DNA from: Candidatus Thermoplasmatota archaeon | GTDB lineage: Archaea; Thermoplasmatota; Thermoplasmata; UBA10834 | Reading direction: 5' to 3' | NCBI GenBank assembly: GCA_018814355.1 | Contig: JAHIZT010000082.1 | Span: forward strand, 1 to 50,458 | Length of the DNA: 50,458 nucleotides | Shown: positions 35,591 through 43,665 of the stretch, piece after piece | How the letters are laid out: every line of letters begins with the position of its first letter | Numbering within the stretch: position 1 is the stretch's first letter | The notes under the pieces: generated by a model | Databases searched by the model: none | Seen by the model: only the letters and a program-made list of their open reading frames with translations | What the model was told of the DNA's origin: nothing | Made by a program: the position numbers and the translations under genes

Positions 35591-36070
35591 GTGAAGAAGC
35601 TGTTCATTGGGCTCTACGCACGGACGTTCTGCCACACGACAGAGGATCTGGCGAAGGTCAAGGAAGCCATGACAAACGTCCTTGGAGATTTCGAGCTGAG
35701 AATCTCAAAGACCGAGGGACATCACGGGAACCCCATCACTGTCATCGAGTCCACTGTCGACAAAATGAATGGCATATCCGGGTTCTTCGCCAAGGTCGAT
35801 GATCACGACCTTTCTTTGATAGAGGATACGCTGGCAACTCGTGTTGATGACGGCTGCAACCTCTTCCTCAAGATTGACAAACAGGAGGCTTTTCTCGGCA
35901 AGGTGAAGCTGGGTCATGAAGACGACGTCATCTCTCTGAGGATACGCGTGGCCGCGTTCCCGGCAACGTGCGAGGTCGCTCAGAACAATATCAGAGAATA
36001 CTTGGCCCTGGAACGAGCGAGGAGAGGCGGAACAGCGACTACTTCCAGCACAAGCCACGTAGACGATTGA
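35591..36070 (+). CDS. Exosome-associated RNA-binding protein (COG1325-like)
   Basis: 159 aa. KKLFIGLYARTFCHTTEDLAKVKEAM at the start, TEGHHGNPITVIEST, and LFLKIDKQEAFLGKVKLGHEDDVISLRIRVAAFP match the archaeal RNA-binding family annotated as exosome subunit (COG1325). Ser/Thr-rich tail. The start is GTG 35591: TTACATATCC at 35561-35570 is centred 26 bp upstream, implying a leaderless message. A role with the RNA exosome is family knowledge; no exosome gene is adjacent. Confidence 0.8.
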   Translation: MKKLFIGLYARTFCHTTEDLAKVKEAMTNVLGDFELRISKTEGHHGNPITVIESTVDKMNGISGFFAKVDDHDLSLIEDTLATRVDDGCNLFLKIDKQEAFLGKVKLGHEDDVISLRIRVAAFPATCEVAQNNIREYLALERARRGGTATTSSTSHVDD

Positions 36071-36485: not shown

Positions 36486-36851
36486 ATGGCCCACGCGTTT
36501 CCCTCGCCCGTGAAGTACCTATACTGCCCGCAATGCAAGGAGCTCAGAGTGAAGAGCTGGTATCAGGTCAGAAATGTGTGCTCCAGGTGCTTCAGTGTTG
36601 CGACCGCGATCGAGATTCCTAGGAATTGGATGACATACGTCTCGTACGTTCTCTATGTCGTCGTCCCAGCACTAATAGGCGCAAATCGAATCACTGGCTC
36701 AGCAACATATCTCCGGCTGGCAATCATAGGCCTCGTTGTGATGTTGATCGTCTCATATATGAACATAGTGCGTGGGGAGAAGTTCGCAAGGACCAAGATC
36801 AAAGTAGCCGGCTCGAACCTAGACCAGTTCAGGAAGAAGGGTTGGGCATAG
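36486..36851 (+). CDS. Zinc-ribbon membrane protein
   Basis: 121 aa from ATG 36486, preceded by GGAG at a spacing of 7; the longer frame to 36402 has no such site. Seen: a single zinc ribbon (YCPQCKEL and CSRCFSV), then two hydrophobic helices (YVSYVLYVVVPALIG and LRLAIIGLVVMLIVSYMNIV), and a basic tail. No family recognised. It converges on, and overlaps by 33 bases, the end of a pilin-like gene, next to the pilus-like locus. Confidence 0.78.
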   Translation: MAHAFPSPVKYLYCPQCKELRVKSWYQVRNVCSRCFSVATAIEIPRNWMTYVSYVLYVVVPALIGANRITGSATYLRLAIIGLVVMLIVSYMNIVRGEKFARTKIKVAGSNLDQFRKKGWA

Positions 36852-37376
36852 GATGAGTTCGGCAAGGTAGACCATTGCGCCTGACCCCGGGATTTCGGTC
36901 GAACTCGCATAGGCGTTCTTGGTCGCCTCAGGCACGCATGGAATCGAAAGCACCGGTCCAGAGAGGTCATCGCCCATTTCAAGCACCAGCAGGTAGGGTT
37001 CGAATGCTGGGTTGCACACAGCCCTCAGCATGTCACAGATGAGGCTGTTCAGACGATTGAATTGCATCATGTCATGTCCGGCCTCCAGCGCACGCAGCTC
37101 GATGGCGAGAGACTCGGCAGCAGTCGTGCGGTCGTCCATGTAGAATGGTTGACCGAGATCCACGACAACGGATTCGCACAACGATGTCGCAAGGAACGTC
37201 CGCAGGATTTCCGCGGGGTCTGTGTCGCCGCCAATACTGTTCCCCTGGGAGTGATTGGGGAGGGGTGTGACGTAGGACATGAGAATGTTTGAAACCAAAA
37301 CGGCCCCGATGAAGAAGATGATTGCGTCCATTACCGCCAGCTGAGCACTGATCTCACCATCGGATCTACCACACAA
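36819..37376 (-). CDS. Pilin-like membrane-anchored protein (pilus-like locus)
   Basis: 185 aa, or 170 aa from ATG 37331. The N-terminus has one hydrophobic helix, MDAIIFFIGAVLVSNILMSYV, followed by an extracytoplasmic domain with four cysteines (C in SLCES, LICDM, AVCNP, SIPCV and one in ILCPT near the end). That architecture fits a Tad/class-III-pilin-associated protein; the DAIIFF start resembles haloarchaeal pilus-locus proteins, though I cannot name a family. It overlaps the preceding gene by 11 bases if the longer start is used; the shorter start avoids this. Function inferred from location. Confidence 0.7.
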   Translation of the reverse strand: MCGRSDGEISAQLAVMDAIIFFIGAVLVSNILMSYVTPLPNHSQGNSIGGDTDPAEILRTFLATSLCESVVVDLGQPFYMDDRTTAAESLAIELRALEAGHDMMQFNRLNSLICDMLRAVCNPAFEPYLLVLEMGDDLSGPVLSIPCVPEATKNAYASSTEIPGSGAMVYLAELILCPTLLPELV

Positions 37377-37824
37377 CCGATCTCACCTCGAGCATGATAG
37401 TCCTTCCATAACCGTCAAGGACGTTGAGCAGTCGAGAACAGTATCCGGTGGTATTCGGTTGCGCTGTGTCGTTGTCGGACCCGGTATTCAACCAGGTGTA
37501 GGATGGATATCTGGAAATGATGGCAATCAGGTAATGCCTCTCACCAACGACCCTACTTGCGATGTCAGAGATGTCGACGTTCTGCGCTGATGATACAGAC
37601 GGCATCAGGCCTGGCGTTTCCGGCCTGAGCAACCGAGACATGACGCTGTTCACCAGATCCTCAGCTAGGGAGTCAAGCTCCTCCTGGACCTGGACAGCAT
37701 TCAGATTCCGGGAAACCCACGTTCCACAGAGGACTAGAGTCGCCACCCCCACAAGGACGAACATGAGGACGGGAAGGTCCTCGAAGAAGCCCGCGACTCC
37801 TGCGTCATCTGCCTTCATGATCAT
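37366..37824 (-). CDS. Pilin-like membrane-anchored protein (pilus-like locus)
   Basis: 152 aa. Short N-terminal stretch, then one hydrophobic helix (LPVLMFVLVGVATLVLCGTWV, about 18-38), then an extracytoplasmic domain of about 110 residues with SQ/DN-rich loops (SGSDNDTAQPN, written here in part). No cleavage site certain. The single helix followed by an outer domain matches minor-pilin or anchor subunits. It is the first gene on the minus side of the divergent pilus-like locus. No family recognised by name. Confidence 0.68.
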   Translation of the reverse strand: MIMKADDAGVAGFFEDLPVLMFVLVGVATLVLCGTWVSRNLNAVQVQEELDSLAEDLVNSVMSRLLRPETPGLMPSVSSAQNVDISDIASRVVGERHYLIAIISRYPSYTWLNTGSDNDTAQPNTTGYCSRLLNVLDGYGRTIMLEVRSVVW

Positions 37825-37857
37825 CCGGAGCGTCGGTGATGGTTGGCTTCATAGTCA

Positions 37858-37920
37858 CTACATGTAGCCTACGACCGTGGAATCCGTAGAAGAACCGCAC
37901 ATGCCATGCTTCATGGCATG
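37858..37920. promoter_or_regulatory. Divergent control region with two perfect palindromes
   Basis: CTACATGTAG at 37858-37867 is a 10-bp palindrome. CATGCCATG-CTT-CATGGCATG at 37900-37920 is a perfect 9-bp inverted repeat. They lie between the divergent halves of the pilus-like locus. The longer one covers the first two ATGs of the Cys-rich gene, so it may be an operator or a leader hairpin. Confidence 0.55.
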
Positions 37921-38451
37921 AGACACCGCCAAGGACCCGCCAAGAAACTGGCTCCGAGCATGAGCCCCGAATCGATCTGCCCACACAACTACACTGAAGA
38001 GGAGGCGCTCCAGCTGGAGATCGACTGCGGTTCGTGCACAGGCGCGAACGACCTCATGAACAACAGATGTTTGACGGGCGTGATGAACATCATCGCGGCC
38101 GGGGCGGTGCCGGAGGCGATTATCCTCAAGAGGTTCATCCACAAGAGGTACAGAGGGGACGCTGTGAAATTGGCAGCACTGGCGGCGCGGGAGCTGGCCA
38201 CACTGAACAGAGCAATCGCATCAGCAGAGACGCCGTCTGACAAGAAGTGTCGGACATGTCCTTCTAGCAAGGAGCTGGCGATGATTGCGATGAGGCGCAG
38301 GCTGCTCTCGAGCCCAATCAAGTACATGCCCGGGAAAGGGGTAGACCCATCACAGCTTGCGGAAGAACTGACGGTCGAAGGCTGTCCGATGGCTCGCAGA
38401 TGCGTGGACGAGGCGCTCGCGGTGAGCGTGCTCCTATCAGGGGGGGAATGA
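37906..38451 (+). CDS. Cys-rich protein of the pilus-like locus, unknown function
   Basis: Up to 181 aa. Twelve or so cysteines in pairs: SICPHN, DCGSCTG, NRCL, KKCRTCPSS, EGCPMARRC. Helical segments lie between them and no membrane helix is seen. The CGSC and CRTCP pairs could bind zinc or an iron-sulfur cluster. Three starts are possible: ATG 37906 and ATG 37918 lie inside the 37900-37920 palindrome; ATG 37960 (MSPESICPHNY) would leave the palindrome in the leader and is perhaps the best. Its stop is immediately followed by the ATPase start, so the two are coupled. I recognise no family. Confidence 0.75.
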   Translation: MLHGMRHRQGPAKKLAPSMSPESICPHNYTEEEALQLEIDCGSCTGANDLMNNRCLTGVMNIIAAGAVPEAIILKRFIHKRYRGDAVKLAALAARELATLNRAIASAETPSDKKCRTCPSSKELAMIAMRRRLLSSPIKYMPGKGVDPSQLAEELTVEGCPMARRCVDEALAVSVLLSGGE

Positions 38452-40206
38452 GTGTTGTCGAGGCCTCCTCCTCCGAAGATCGTGCATGGCGGACGGCCAC
38501 CCATCCAAGGGACGCAGACGCCGGTCCTGGTGCTAAAGCCCACTCCCAAACCCTCCCTGTCGGTAGCGCAGTTCGAGACACGACCGTGCTTCGCATCATC
38601 CTGGGTAGAGTCCAAGGCCGCAATTGAGAGCGAAGTCGTAGCGCGATACGAGATATCGGGAGTCGGCGTGACCATATCGTCCCCTGAGAGTTCCAGCTGC
38701 GGACTCTACACAATCGATCCTCCTGAGTACAAGCTCAATCCATTACAGCTGCAGGCCCTAGCAGGCGCGATATCCGAGGTCACGCGGGCAGCTCCAGCCG
38801 ACCTGGAGGTGAGCTCCTTGGGGACCGTCAGACCGTACATCAAGGCTAGGGCGAAGGACTTCATATTCTCACAACTCGCCAGGAGATCCAGAGAAGAGAC
38901 TGTTGGAATGGTCCTCGACAGAGAGGCAGACCATCTGTCAGAGCTTCTATGCAAGTACACCGCAGGCTACGGAGTCCTGGAGACGCTGTTGGAGGACCGA
39001 CTCATACAGGATATCTACGTCGACGCGCCCTCGAGCCAGACGCCGGTACAGGTGGTCCTTCGGTCGGATGCGGGGCCGCGCGTCAGACAGAAGTGTCGGA
39101 CGAACATATTGGTGGGCAGGAAAGACATCCAGGGTTTCGTCTCCCGCATCAAGCTTGAGACCGGGCTGCCGTTCTCAGAGGCACATCCTGTCCTCGAGGC
39201 AGACATAAAACGCTTGGGGGCACGGGTCACCCTCGTCGGGCCTCCCTTGAGTGAGAAAGGGGTTTCCGTTGCGATCAGGAAGCATTCTACCAACCTGTGG
39301 ACAATTCCAAGGTTGATCGCCAACGGCTCGCTCTCTCCCCTGCTTGCGAGCTTCCTGTGGGCATGCGTGATCGGCCGAAGGACTGTCCTCGTAGCTGGCA
39401 GCAGAGGGGCTGGCAAGACCACCCTACTTGGAGCGATAATGCTCGAGTTCCCCCTGTCCCAGAGGATAATCCTGATAGAAGACACACCTGAGCTCTCGGT
39501 CCCGCGCATGCAAGAGCTGGGGTACGATGTGCAGACGCTGAGGTTTTCCGGAGCCAGTGAGGAGGGTGTCGCGTCGGCACAGGAGGCACTCAGAGTCAGC
39601 CTCAGGATGGGAGAGAGCGCGATCGTGATTGGGGAGGTCAGGGGCGCAGAGGCCAAAGTGCTCTACGAGAGCATGCGCGCGGGGAGTGCGGGGTCGTCGG
39701 TCCTCGGGACCATCCATGGCAACTCCGCCAAGGGCGTTCTGGACCGAGCGGTCGAGGACCTGGGGGTCTCGGAGAGGGCCTTCTCGTCAACCGACATAGT
39801 CGTCGTGATAGGCCTCGTGCGGTCTCCTGACGGTTCGAGGTTCAACAGGCGGGTCGTAGAGGTCGCCGAGGTGAGGGAGAGAGGCCAGAGCGTAGAGCTT
39901 GTCAGTCTTTTCACGACGGAGGCGGGCTGCACATGCGCAAAGCCGACTTCGGACTTCTCGCCTGACTGCAAGACCATCAAAGGCATCGCGTATGCGTTGG
40001 ACATCAGTCCAGTGACGATCATGGACATCATCAGGGCGAGGGCACATGCTGACCAGCTCGTGTCAGAGGCCGATGGTGTCTGGGGAGAGGACGAGGCCAG
40101 AGTCCGGTCGAACGAGGTGCTCACGAGGTGCCTGTTCGGGAATGACGGCCCGGAGACGGGCCTCAGAGAATGGAGGAGTTGGCTCGATGCAAGGATGTCG
40201 AGATGA
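38452..40206 (+). CDS. Type II/IV secretion-type (Tad/pilus) ATPase
   Basis: 584 aa. The hexameric motor that drives pilus assembly or secretion. Seen: an N-terminal region of about 130 residues with a Pro-rich start, the N2 domain EDRLIQDIYVDAP (about 181-193), Walker A GSRGAGKTT at 316-324, the Asp box ILIEDTPEL at 340-348, Walker B IVIGEVRGAEA at 391-401, and the His box GTIHGNSA at 419-426. A C-terminal Cys pair (GCTCAKP) follows. GTG 38452 starts directly at the previous gene's stop codon. The next gene, a TadC-like membrane protein, overlaps its 3' end. Confidence 0.93.
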   Translation: MLSRPPPPKIVHGGRPPIQGTQTPVLVLKPTPKPSLSVAQFETRPCFASSWVESKAAIESEVVARYEISGVGVTISSPESSSCGLYTIDPPEYKLNPLQLQALAGAISEVTRAAPADLEVSSLGTVRPYIKARAKDFIFSQLARRSREETVGMVLDREADHLSELLCKYTAGYGVLETLLEDRLIQDIYVDAPSSQTPVQVVLRSDAGPRVRQKCRTNILVGRKDIQGFVSRIKLETGLPFSEAHPVLEADIKRLGARVTLVGPPLSEKGVSVAIRKHSTNLWTIPRLIANGSLSPLLASFLWACVIGRRTVLVAGSRGAGKTTLLGAIMLEFPLSQRIILIEDTPELSVPRMQELGYDVQTLRFSGASEEGVASAQEALRVSLRMGESAIVIGEVRGAEAKVLYESMRAGSAGSSVLGTIHGNSAKGVLDRAVEDLGVSERAFSSTDIVVVIGLVRSPDGSRFNRRVVEVAEVRERGQSVELVSLFTTEAGCTCAKPTSDFSPDCKTIKGIAYALDISPVTIMDIIRARAHADQLVSEADGVWGEDEARVRSNEVLTRCLFGNDGPETGLREWRSWLDARMSR

Positions 40207-42016
40207 TCAGCAAGCTCACATGCTCTTCGTGTCCTTATGCGTTCGATTGGAGCGACTAGGTTCGAAACTGGGAATCGGAGCTAGAAGCTCGCCGAAAGGA
40301 ATTGCACGACGGGCCAGAGGAACGAGGACATTACTGGACGTCAGGGCGAAGCTGGACCTTGCGGGGATCGATGTTCCGCCAGGAACAGTTCTCGCCGCGG
40401 CAAAGACCCTTGCCGTCCTGATGGGCTTATCTCTGGCGGTCTTCGCGGTTGCCGTTCTCCTCGTAGGGGCACACTCTTACCTCATCCCCTCGGTCTTCCT
40501 GGGGGCTATCGCGCCTCTTGTGTCAAGGGAGGTCCTTCTCTCATATCCTGGGAGCGCAGCGAACAAACGCGCGTCTGAGGTCCTCAAAGGGTCTCCGGAA
40601 GCCGCGAACCTCATGATCATGAGCCTGAGGCACGAGCCCTCGCTGTCTAAGGCGATCAGGTTCGCCTCCAAGAGGAGCAACGCATTCTCACAAGAACTTG
40701 GCAACTGCATCTGGTACGTGGTGATGGGCAAGCATGCGAGCTTTGAGGAGTCACTACAGGAGCTTGGGGGCAGGTGGGCTGCATACGGGAACGAGCTCAA
40801 AGCCTCTCTGAACGCGATGGTCACTGCATCGTGCGAAGCGACCGAGGACGGCAAGAGGAGGGCCCTCGACAGGGCCAATCATTCCATGATATCGGGAGCG
40901 AAGAGAAGGATCGAAGAGTACGCGCTCTCGCTGTCCGCCCCCAGCATGATGATGTTCGGGCTCGGGATCCTCCTGCCGCTGATGGTCGGTTCGTTCCTGC
41001 CGATGCTGTCATGGAACCTCTGGTCTCCCGAGACCGTCGGAGAGGGTTCGCTTTTGCAGGATCAAGGACAGGCGACGCTCGAGACCGTCTTCCTGATGAA
41101 TGTCATGTTCCCGGCGATAGCCGCGCTTGTTGCCACGAGCGCTGCATCGCGTCATCCCATTGAGACCCACAGTAGGCATGTATCCAGGAAGGGGCTCGTC
41201 ACGGCATCCAGGGCGCTCCCTGTCCTCGCACTGAGCGGGGCTGCATGCGTCCTTTCGGTGATTCTCCTGGAGGGTATGCAGATGTCGCTTGCACTCCTCC
41301 TCAGCTCGATCGCGCCCCCGTCCGCCATCATGATGCTCATCGGGAGGGAGGGACCGCAGGCGGGGTCGAAGCTTGCTGAAGGTGATGTGGAGGACGCATT
41401 GTTCAAGACCGGCGCCCGGATGCTAGAGGGAGAGAATTTCGAGGCTGCGCTGAGCAAGGCCGGGCTGGAGATGCACGGGCCCGCAGGAGATCGAGTAAGA
41501 CGGCTCTCATTCGGCTCGATAGTCTCTGGCAGAGATACTGCTGTTATGGAAATGGAGGACAAGGCGGAAGAACCTGGCCAGAACGCGCTCGATGGCATCA
41601 GGGTCGTCAAGGAAGCTGCCTCCAAGGACGAGCGCGCGGCCGGAGTATTGGCCATGGACCTCGCAGCCTACCTCAAGGATCTGCACGACCTCGAAACCAC
41701 CTTGAAGAACCGACTGAAGCCCACCATCTCGATGATGAGGCTAACGGCATACGCGCTCGGCCCCATAGTCCTGGGCGTAACATTCGCGATATACATGTCC
41801 CTAGCGGGAATGATGGGATCTGGCTCCGCGGGAATCTCCGCTGAAATCTTCTTCCTGGTGCTCGGCGTGTTCCTGGCAGAGACGAACGCAGTCGTAGCGT
41901 ACTTCGTCTGGGGGATCGAGGGCAAGAGGGACAGGAGAGAGCTTCTTCGTTCGCTGGGTGCGTACATACTGGTGTCTGGGCTCGTATATAGCGCGACAGC
42001 GATGATCGTAGCTTGA
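40187..42016 (+). CDS. TadC/T2SSF-like pilus-assembly membrane protein
   Basis: About 609 aa. The membrane platform partner of the secretion ATPase. Two T2SSF-like units are visible, each with a cytoplasmic helical domain (SLRHEPSLSKAIRFASKRSNAF; and a later GARMLEGENFEAALSKAGLEM) flanked by membrane helices (LAVLMGLSLAVFAVAVLLVG; MMMFGLGILLPLMVGSF; VLALSGAACVLSVILLEG; YALGPIVLGVTFAIYMSL; LGAYILVSGLVYSATAMIV). Start at ATG 40187, with GGAG 8 bases upstream, overlaps the ATPase by 20 bases; ATG 40220 is an alternative without a Shine-Dalgarno. Likely translationally coupled. Confidence 0.87.
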   Translation: MQGCRDDQQAHMLFVSLCVRLERLGSKLGIGARSSPKGIARRARGTRTLLDVRAKLDLAGIDVPPGTVLAAAKTLAVLMGLSLAVFAVAVLLVGAHSYLIPSVFLGAIAPLVSREVLLSYPGSAANKRASEVLKGSPEAANLMIMSLRHEPSLSKAIRFASKRSNAFSQELGNCIWYVVMGKHASFEESLQELGGRWAAYGNELKASLNAMVTASCEATEDGKRRALDRANHSMISGAKRRIEEYALSLSAPSMMMFGLGILLPLMVGSFLPMLSWNLWSPETVGEGSLLQDQGQATLETVFLMNVMFPAIAALVATSAASRHPIETHSRHVSRKGLVTASRALPVLALSGAACVLSVILLEGMQMSLALLLSSIAPPSAIMMLIGREGPQAGSKLAEGDVEDALFKTGARMLEGENFEAALSKAGLEMHGPAGDRVRRLSFGSIVSGRDTAVMEMEDKAEEPGQNALDGIRVVKEAASKDERAAGVLAMDLAAYLKDLHDLETTLKNRLKPTISMMRLTAYALGPIVLGVTFAIYMSLAGMMGSGSAGISAEIFFLVLGVFLAETNAVVAYFVWGIEGKRDRRELLRSLGAYILVSGLVYSATAMIVA

Positions 42017-42033: not shown

Positions 42034-42603
42034 CTACTTCGCGGGCTTGACCTTGCTCGAGAGCTTCTCCAAGTTCCTCTCCAGGAGGGCCAGCTCCTTC
42101 GTGTCAAAGGCTCTCGGGTCGACTGGTATGATCATAATAGCCGTGCTCTGGGATATGTGGTCGTTCACCTGGTCTATGACTCTGAGGACCTTGTTGAAAT
42201 CGTTGTTGGAGACCAGATACTCCAGGCCGTCCAACAGTATCACGCCGCAAGGGTTCTGCTCAATGAACTGTATGAGGGTATGGGTCAAGATGCCGAGGTT
42301 GGTCGGGGAAATGACATCCTGTCCCGTCCGCGTCGCCAGCCAGTACAAAGGAGTCTGCTCCAGACCGTACTTCTGCTTGATCATGTCCGGGTGCTGCCGG
42401 CTAATTGCCAGACCGACGGCCTTTACGGAGTGGTCTCCGGAGCTCGTTGATATTATGTTCACGAACGCGTCGAAGCTGATATCTGGCGGAGACTCCTCGA
42501 CGACATAGGATTTGCCACCGGCCAGGTTGTACTTCCTGGTTATTCCGAGGCCTTTATCCTCACTCGCCTTGTCGAACCTGGGCCTCTTTGAAAAGAGGCC
42601 CAT
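42034..42603 (-). CDS. DUF835-family protein
   Basis: 189 aa. A stand-alone DUF835 domain: KSYVVEESPPDISFDAFVNI, GLAISRQHPDMIKQKYGL, LYWLATRTGQDVISPTNLGILTHTL, GVILLDGLEYLVSNNDFNKVL and IIPVDPRAFDTKEL. The ILLDGLEYL segment resembles a Walker-B strand of KaiC/RecA-like ATPases, but no P-loop is seen. It starts directly after the response-regulator stop codon (GGAG 8 bases upstream), so the two form an operon. The membrane RING protein at 21.6-23.4 kb carries a paralogous domain. Function unknown; a signalling partner is inferred. Confidence 0.88.
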   Translation of the reverse strand: MGLFSKRPRFDKASEDKGLGITRKYNLAGGKSYVVEESPPDISFDAFVNIISTSSGDHSVKAVGLAISRQHPDMIKQKYGLEQTPLYWLATRTGQDVISPTNLGILTHTLIQFIEQNPCGVILLDGLEYLVSNNDFNKVLRVIDQVNDHISQSTAIMIIPVDPRAFDTKELALLERNLEKLSSKVKPAK

Positions 42604-42969
42604 CTAATCACTCCACATGGCCAGCGTGGAGCTTAGCGCGATCTCATTTGTCGGTTTAAGGAGAAAATCCTTTGCTCCCGCGTCCATGCTCTCGCGTATC
42701 ATCTTCTTGTTGATTATGGAGCTCATTGCCACAATCGTTGCCGTAGGGTCGATCTCAAACATCGCTTTCGTGAGCTCAACTCCTGACTTACCTGGCAGGA
42801 TCATGTCGATGAAAGATATATTGGGCTTCTCCCGCTTGAAGACCTCGATTCCTTCGTCGAAGTCCTTCGCCTCGACGACATCATGGAATCCCACCCTGAC
42901 CAGGAGTTCGATCATTACCTTCCTGAAGGCCTCAGAATCGTCGACAACAAGTATCCTCATGTCAATCAC
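42604..42969 (-). CDS. Response-regulator receiver-domain protein
   Basis: 121 aa, a REC domain with no output domain. Seen: MRILVVDDSEAF (acidic pair Asp 10/11), the phospho-acceptor Asp 55 in FIDMILPGKSG, Ser 83 in AMSS, and Lys 105 in LLKP, so all active-site positions are present. Lacking a DNA-binding domain, it must signal by protein contact, like CheY or Spo0F. The most likely partner is the DUF835 protein translated directly after it. No histidine kinase is in the window. GATAAATACC at about 43000 is a TATA candidate. Confidence 0.93.
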   Translation of the reverse strand: MIDMRILVVDDSEAFRKVMIELLVRVGFHDVVEAKDFDEGIEVFKREKPNISFIDMILPGKSGVELTKAMFEIDPTATIVAMSSIINKKMIRESMDAGAKDFLLKPTNEIALSSTLAMWSD

Positions 42970-43250: not shown

Positions 43251-43444
43251 GACGCTCAGGTCGCCTCTCCGATGCAACTCGTTCCATTCGGCTCCGACCG
43301 TGCGGCCATCTCTGGCTCGCATAGAATCATCATCACGTCATGCTGGAACGCGCCGGGGTCGAACCGTAGACCCCCTGCCATCCCGTTCGAGATGGCTGTC
43401 TGCAGCAGGTTTAGACTGGCATTGACATGTCTATCGAGGCGCCA
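43251..43444. repeat. Long direct repeat, copy B (TnpB 3' end)
   Basis: Nearly identical to 1-200, same orientation, with a 6-base indel. It includes the TnpB C-terminal codons and the stop at 43256-43258. Confidence 0.9.
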
Positions 43445-43665
43445 GCCACCTCGAACGCCGATACAAGATGCTTGGCATACATTCTGGGATGTTCTTGGCG
43501 ATAATCCTTGTACGTGAGTGTGACCAAGGCGTTTCTCGAGGTCACTCTCGCCTGGAGACCGACTCTGACCGCGTTGTTGACGGCCAATCTGAAGTCCTCG
43601 AGAAGGTATTTCGCCTCCGATGGAAGGTCCGTATCCAACCGGAAGACGACTCCCTTGATCAGCAT
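43256..43665 (-). pseudogene. TnpB relic with internal deletion (copy 2)
   Basis: The 5' part (start ATG 43665) encodes a TnpB N-terminus: MLIKGVVFRLDTDLPSEAK, then LEDFRLAVNNAVRVGLQARVTSRNALVTLTYKDYRQEHP and HLVSAFEVAG, to about residue 75. At about 43440 it jumps, one frame out, into the C-terminal end GGWRLDRHVNASLNLL...EPNGTSCIGEAT. Roughly 250-300 residues, including most of the RuvC nuclease and half the zinc ribbon, are missing. The N-terminal frame terminates shortly after (at 43411). The protein cannot be active. A TATA element TTATATACTGG lies 18 bp upstream of the start. The two retained ends flank a clean deletion. Confidence 0.82.

Follow-up and report, generated by a model that had tools for sequence, protein, structure and literature searches.

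A stand-alone form of the cysteine-rich domain of archaeal pilus ATPases in a Tad-like locus of uncultured Thermoplasmata

Introduction

Among the archaeal pilus systems described so far, those of subclade 4F have ATPases for which an N-terminal cysteine-rich domain was noted (Makarova et al., 2016; PMC4858521). A tetracysteine zinc domain is also known from the ATPase EpsE/GspE, where it is essential for type II secretion (PMC5061722). Within the Thermoplasmata, a pilus with an ATPase and a platform protein, CdiP, has been described from Cuniculiplasma divulgatum (Thermoplasmatales); the word cysteine is absent from the main text of that paper (PMC12448462).

Here we describe a locus in a stretch of 50,458 nucleotides from a Candidatus Thermoplasmatota archaeon (contig JAHIZT010000082.1, assembly GCA_018814355.1), hereafter the window. 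A first-pass annotation, made from the sequence alone, had seen in it a Tad-like pilus locus with a cysteine-rich partner protein unlike any known pilus component. We compared the genes of this locus with those of related archaea and with known secretion and pilus machines.

Layout and conservation of the locus

Three genes on the plus strand encode, in order, a cysteine-rich protein of 177 amino acids (37918..38451), a VirB11/TadA-type secretion ATPase of 584 amino acids (38452..40206; PF00437, 6.6e-23) and a TadC/GspF-like membrane platform protein of about 600 amino acids (40187..42016, with a start at 40187 or 40220). This order had been given correctly by the first-pass annotation, as had the stop/start coupling of the three genes: the TGA of the cysteine-rich gene (38449-38451) directly abuts the GTG start of the ATPase (38452), and the end of the ATPase gene overlaps the TadC-like gene by about 20 nt if the latter begins at 40187. 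The two single-helix anchor proteins reported on the minus strand are likewise present. Anch152 (152 amino acids; 37366..37818, start probably at 37818) and Anch185 (185 amino acids; 36819..37376, its start overlapping the end of Anch152) are both pilin-like and are discussed below.

Converging with Anch185 is a plus-strand gene for a zinc-ribbon and membrane-helix protein of about 121 amino acids (36486..36851), the start of which was set by the length of its relatives (122-126 amino acids). It is syntenic in the family, and its membership in the pilus system is uncertain. Zn-ribbon membrane proteins (arCOG07264) also occur at Sulfolobus bindosome loci (PMC4858521), which does not imply kinship with the protein described here. 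On the other flank, a minus-strand gene for a DUF835 protein (42034..42603; PF05763, 3.1e-34) adjoins the TadC-like gene throughout the family and is paired with one for a single-domain, CheY-like response regulator (42604..42969, minus strand; PF00072, 1.3e-21). The DUF835 protein is possibly a regulator, and it is uncertain whether it or the response regulator belongs to the pilus system; their position beside the TadC-like gene might reflect a signalling input to the pilus. A protein of 84 amino acids (43411-43665, minus strand), without a match in Pfam or NCBIfam, lies between the response regulator and a proteasome gene.

The same arrangement recurs throughout the window's own family of uncultured Thermoplasmata as far as the contigs reach, from the neighbour at 35591 through the zinc-ribbon membrane protein, Anch185, Anch152, the cysteine-rich protein, the ATPase, the TadC-like protein, the DUF835 protein and the response regulator to the proteasome gene. 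Since order and orientation are kept across the family and the cysteine-rich proteins within it are 37-53% identical, the five genes for the anchors, the cysteine-rich protein, the ATPase and the platform are coding; that the cysteine-rich gene might be non-coding, as the first-pass annotation had allowed, does not fit this conservation. An Rfam search of the region gave no match.

The ATPase, the platform and other pilus genes of the genome

The ATPase has intact Walker A (GSRGAGKTT), Walker B (AIVIGEVRG) and His box (GTIHGN) motifs, which are conserved in the aligned relatives. Together with the TadC-like platform, it bears out the earlier assignment to a Tad-like pilus locus. Its nearest solved relatives are GspE2 of Archaeoglobus fulgidus (PDB 2OAP; 1.1e-39) and the CpaF structures (about 1e-37). 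A C-terminal CxC...C motif (GCTCAKPTSDFSPDC) is found in part of the ATPase's own family and not in the other aligned families of the class. In the ATPase tree the protein groups with one haloarchaeal and one Diapherotrites ATPase, apart from the two PilB3-like ATPases of its own genome. The TadC-like gene directly follows the ATPase at related loci. The window's protein itself has no Pfam match, PF00482 included; the label is nonetheless justified at the family level, because 14 of 28 family members match PF00482 (best 2.2e-8).

A second, PilB3-like pilus system is encoded elsewhere in the genome (C53:37500-44000, locus L072), with two PF00437 ATPases, two T2SSF proteins and a DUF7289-like protein, the last a weak match below the curated cut-off. 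No archaellin (PF01917) was found in the genome at E<=1, and an archaellum was rejected on that ground. The earlier statement that no prepilin peptidase accompanies the locus holds for the locus itself but not for the genome: contig C125 carries a PibD-type peptidase, a single open frame of 304 amino acids with both PF01478 (A24) and PF06847 (archaeal PepC_II).

Sequence and spread of the cysteine-rich protein

The start of the cysteine-rich protein was placed at 37918 rather than 37906 on the basis of congeneric relatives, which start there with similar residues (such as MRHRQG and MKHRQG). It contains eight cysteines, fewer than the dozen or so first reported, in two sets: C21/C37/C40/C51 and C111/C114/C156/C162. 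Seven of them (C37, C40, C51, C111, C114, C156 and C162), along with Y78, are invariant over the 38 sequences of a class-level alignment. Homologs were found in 41 of 100 relatives, and in a phylum-wide sample of 395 Thermoplasmatota genomes, each at least 85% complete, the domain is present in 139 and the ATPase of the clade in 154. Pfam offered no identity for the protein, its matches being at chance level (such as WhiB at 0.07) or confined to single members of the protein family.

Fusion to and separation from the ATPase

With the ATPase alignment as query, 80 loci were recovered from named genome contigs. Most belong to uncultured Thermoplasmata, among them members of the DHVE2 group and of Methanomassiliicoccales, and one is a Diapherotrites record. 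Four of the loci end too near the ATPase, leaving 76 testable ones. In 60 of them the cysteine-rich domain is encoded by a separate gene directly upstream, in 14 it is fused to the ATPase, and in two (L121 and L145) it is absent; this count and the synteny count are not independent, since the 80 loci share genomes with the earlier relatives. In the phylum-wide sample, the domain lies directly upstream on the same strand for 127 of the 150 ATPase rows listed; the 23 exceptions come mostly from genomes without any match to the cysteine profile, so that divergence and true absence are indistinguishable among them. The coupling of this gene to the ATPase, claimed from the single locus, thus extends well beyond it: with the domain adjoining or fused in 74 of the 76 testable loci, the absence from this ATPase family elsewhere that would have spoken against it is not seen. 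In L121, the ATPase N-terminus has a plain double-CxxC zinc ribbon in place of the domain (L121:5554-5680). Such ribbons also occur on the ATPase N-termini of L138 (5470-5560) and L139 (5338-5440), both of which have the separate cysteine-rich gene as well.

Fused and split forms are interleaved in the ATPase tree (for example, the fused L035 stands beside the split L040 and L096), which indicates that fusion or fission has happened repeatedly. Such a pattern typically marks proteins that act in contact with each other. Read-through of the stop codon, as a way of joining the two proteins, was ruled out by the mixed stops (46 TGA, 15 TAG, 7 TAA) and mixed frame offsets (32/23/13, with 23 in frame) of 68 split pairs, a pattern that instead points to ordinary tight coupling of the two genes. 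At L054:3290-3370, the ATPase frame has no ATG, GTG or TTG for 75 nt past the TAG stop of the cysteine-rich gene.

Outside Thermoplasmatota, a relative of the domain was found in two Haloterrigena secretion ATPases (WP_339106410.1 and WP_012945992.1), the best plasmid matches to the window ATPase, with 39-40% identity over the core. Their N-terminal region matches the cysteine profile in hmmsearch (at residues 38-111; 3e-6, in a 14-protein set) and again in hhalign (probability 90.6, E 1.3e-6). The match is limited to the first half of the domain, and the two sequences behind it resemble each other. The belonging of a cysteine-rich domain to the ATPase N-terminus, a trait of subclade 4F, is also seen here, in the homologous domain of the 14 fused loci. 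By sequence, the cysteine-rich protein is the N-terminal domain that such archaeal Tad-like/type IV pilus ATPases can carry, here detached and encoded on its own. It is not, as had been proposed, unlike any pilus component: the fused loci, the haloarchaeal relative and the published subclade 4F domain (PMC4858521) all place it with the pilus ATPase N-terminus.

Predicted fold and proposed metal sites

The structure prediction suggested by the first-pass annotation gave a confident AlphaFold2 model of the cysteine-rich protein (65 sequences; mean pLDDT 83.6, pTM 0.77), in which blocks from residue 21 to 100 average above 90. In the model, a beta-beta-alpha-beta-beta-alpha arrangement precedes a second half that is helical. 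Foldseek found no match to this model in the PDB (best E 1.1, probability at most 0.11), nor did a sequence search of the PDB (best E 0.17). The fused form at L105 was also modelled well (pLDDT 87.9), with lower confidence in the linker between the cysteine-rich domain and the ATPase.

Across 65 sequences, the second cysteine set (C111, C114, C156 and a partner) is always complete, and the first (C21, C37, C40, C51) is complete in 57, with piecemeal losses confined to that set. Because the two sets vary independently, we read them as two separate sites, and the sequences suggest that each is a Cys4 metal site. The metal is most likely zinc.

Alternatively, the domain could be a redox or metal sensor, holding an Fe-S cluster or reversible disulfides and switching the motor on and off, rather than a structural zinc fold. 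Eight cysteines in two four-cysteine sets with CxxC spacing would suit such a sensor, the stand-alone form would permit regulated association with the ATPase, and the family has genes for a response regulator and a DUF835 protein next to the locus. The C-x2-C...C-x2-C spacing, however, also fits ordinary structural zinc sites, some lineages keep the system after partial loss of the first set, and the adjacent regulators are conserved only in the window's own family; we regard a sensor as unlikely. Disulfide bridges have been suggested for methanomicrobial relatives (Makarova et al., 2016; PMC4858521). In our case they seem very improbable: CxxC pairs like these are typically found at metal sites, and the cysteines should lie in a reducing compartment, because 14 loci have the domain joined to a cytoplasmic ATPase and its sequence shows no evident signal peptide or membrane segment.

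The anchor proteins as candidate pilins

Many relatives of the two anchors have a short leader, a cleavage motif of the G/A type and a hydrophobic helix. The relatives of Anch185 share (R/K/E)(G/A)|QLALMDA and those of Anch152 share RG|VAGFFE(D/E)xP, each running into the helix. The motif is degenerate: a FlaFind-type pattern occurs near the helix in only 15 of 30 Anch185 relatives and 15 of 26 Anch152 relatives. In the window, Anch152 fails this pattern, and Anch185 passes through a nearby match that is not at the cleavage-like site. Relatives of the anchor pair also recur close to the ATPase at loci of other families; at some of these both are present in the same orientation, at others the arrangement is divergent as in the window. 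The two proteins look like divergent pilins, of which the window copies are weak examples of the class III signal. The earlier statement that no pilin gene accompanies the locus is not supported, as the N-termini of many relatives of both anchors resemble class III prepilin signals. We propose the two families as candidate pilins of the system; ordinary annotation would miss them, because neither anchor matches a family in Pfam or NCBIfam.

It could also be argued that the locus has lost its part in building a surface filament and now works in some other form of secretion or DNA handling, the anchors being unrelated membrane proteins. The lack of Pfam and NCBIfam matches for either anchor and the lack of an archaellin in the genome would be in line with this. 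We consider it distinctly unlikely in view of the prepilin-like N-termini among the anchor relatives, the conserved pairing of the anchors at ATPase loci of other families and the PibD-type peptidase in the genome.

Discussion

The locus probably encodes the motor and the platform of an archaeal Tad-like type IV filament, along with two divergent pilin-like subunits; the cysteine-rich protein is a separate N-terminal domain of the motor and probably a metal-held adaptor. In this machine, the cysteine-rich protein would fold around its two Cys4 sites, most likely with zinc, and attach in the cytoplasm to the N-terminal part of the hexameric ATPase. There it would serve as an adaptor, either structural or regulatory, that resembles the EpsE zinc domain in role and not in ancestry (PMC5061722). 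The hexamer would drive the TadC-like platform, which in turn may extract Anch152 and Anch185, and perhaps pilins encoded elsewhere, into the filament, after the PibD-type peptidase of contig C125 has trimmed them. One could speculate that the detachable domain works as a clutch for the pilus motor, responding to metal or redox state and having a fold unseen in solved structures, and that the recurrent fusion and fission mirrors a regulated association with the hexamer; we think this rather unlikely. The module is directly testable through its metal content, its binding to the ATPase and a knock-out.

Compared with bacterial machines, the ATPase core is homologous to that of the Tad pilus ATPase CpaF/TadA. 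The protein nonetheless scores 135.7 bits against the TadA family TIGR03819, below the cut-off of 373.15, and the window module is without a recognisable Flp pilin. The likeness to EpsE/GspE lies in a metal module of four cysteines linked to a secretion ATPase and is a functional parallel at most (PMC5061722): the EpsE/GspE zinc domain lies within the ATPase polypeptide, and we saw no sequence relation between it and the cysteine-rich protein. A. fulgidus GspE2 is close to the window system in its ATPase and not in the cysteine-rich domain, which had no PDB match by sequence.

Among archaea, the CdiP operon, with two ATPases and two platform proteins, resembles the PilB3-like system on contig C53 and differs from the window system (PMC12448462). 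The Haloterrigena ATPases share a related N-terminal cysteine domain, and the gene after them is annotated as a secretion system protein; unlike in the window, the domain is fused and lacks the second half with its four cysteines. The systems of subclade 4F have in common with the window a VirB11-family ATPase, an adjacent TadC, an N-terminal cysteine-rich module and divergent pilin families, those of the window being candidates, whereas their module sits on the ATPase N-terminus and that of the window is a separate gene (PMC4858521). The module is thus known in outline, from the haloarchaeal N-terminal match and the published 4F domain; what is added here is its stand-alone form and its extent, so that a variable cysteine-rich extension of certain archaeal pilus ATPases, touched on briefly in the literature, becomes a defined domain that is widespread, either fused or stand-alone. 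Because related archaea carry the cysteine-rich part fused to the motor, the locus is a variant of a known machine and not a new one: a real, conserved and slightly under-described form of the archaeal pilus.
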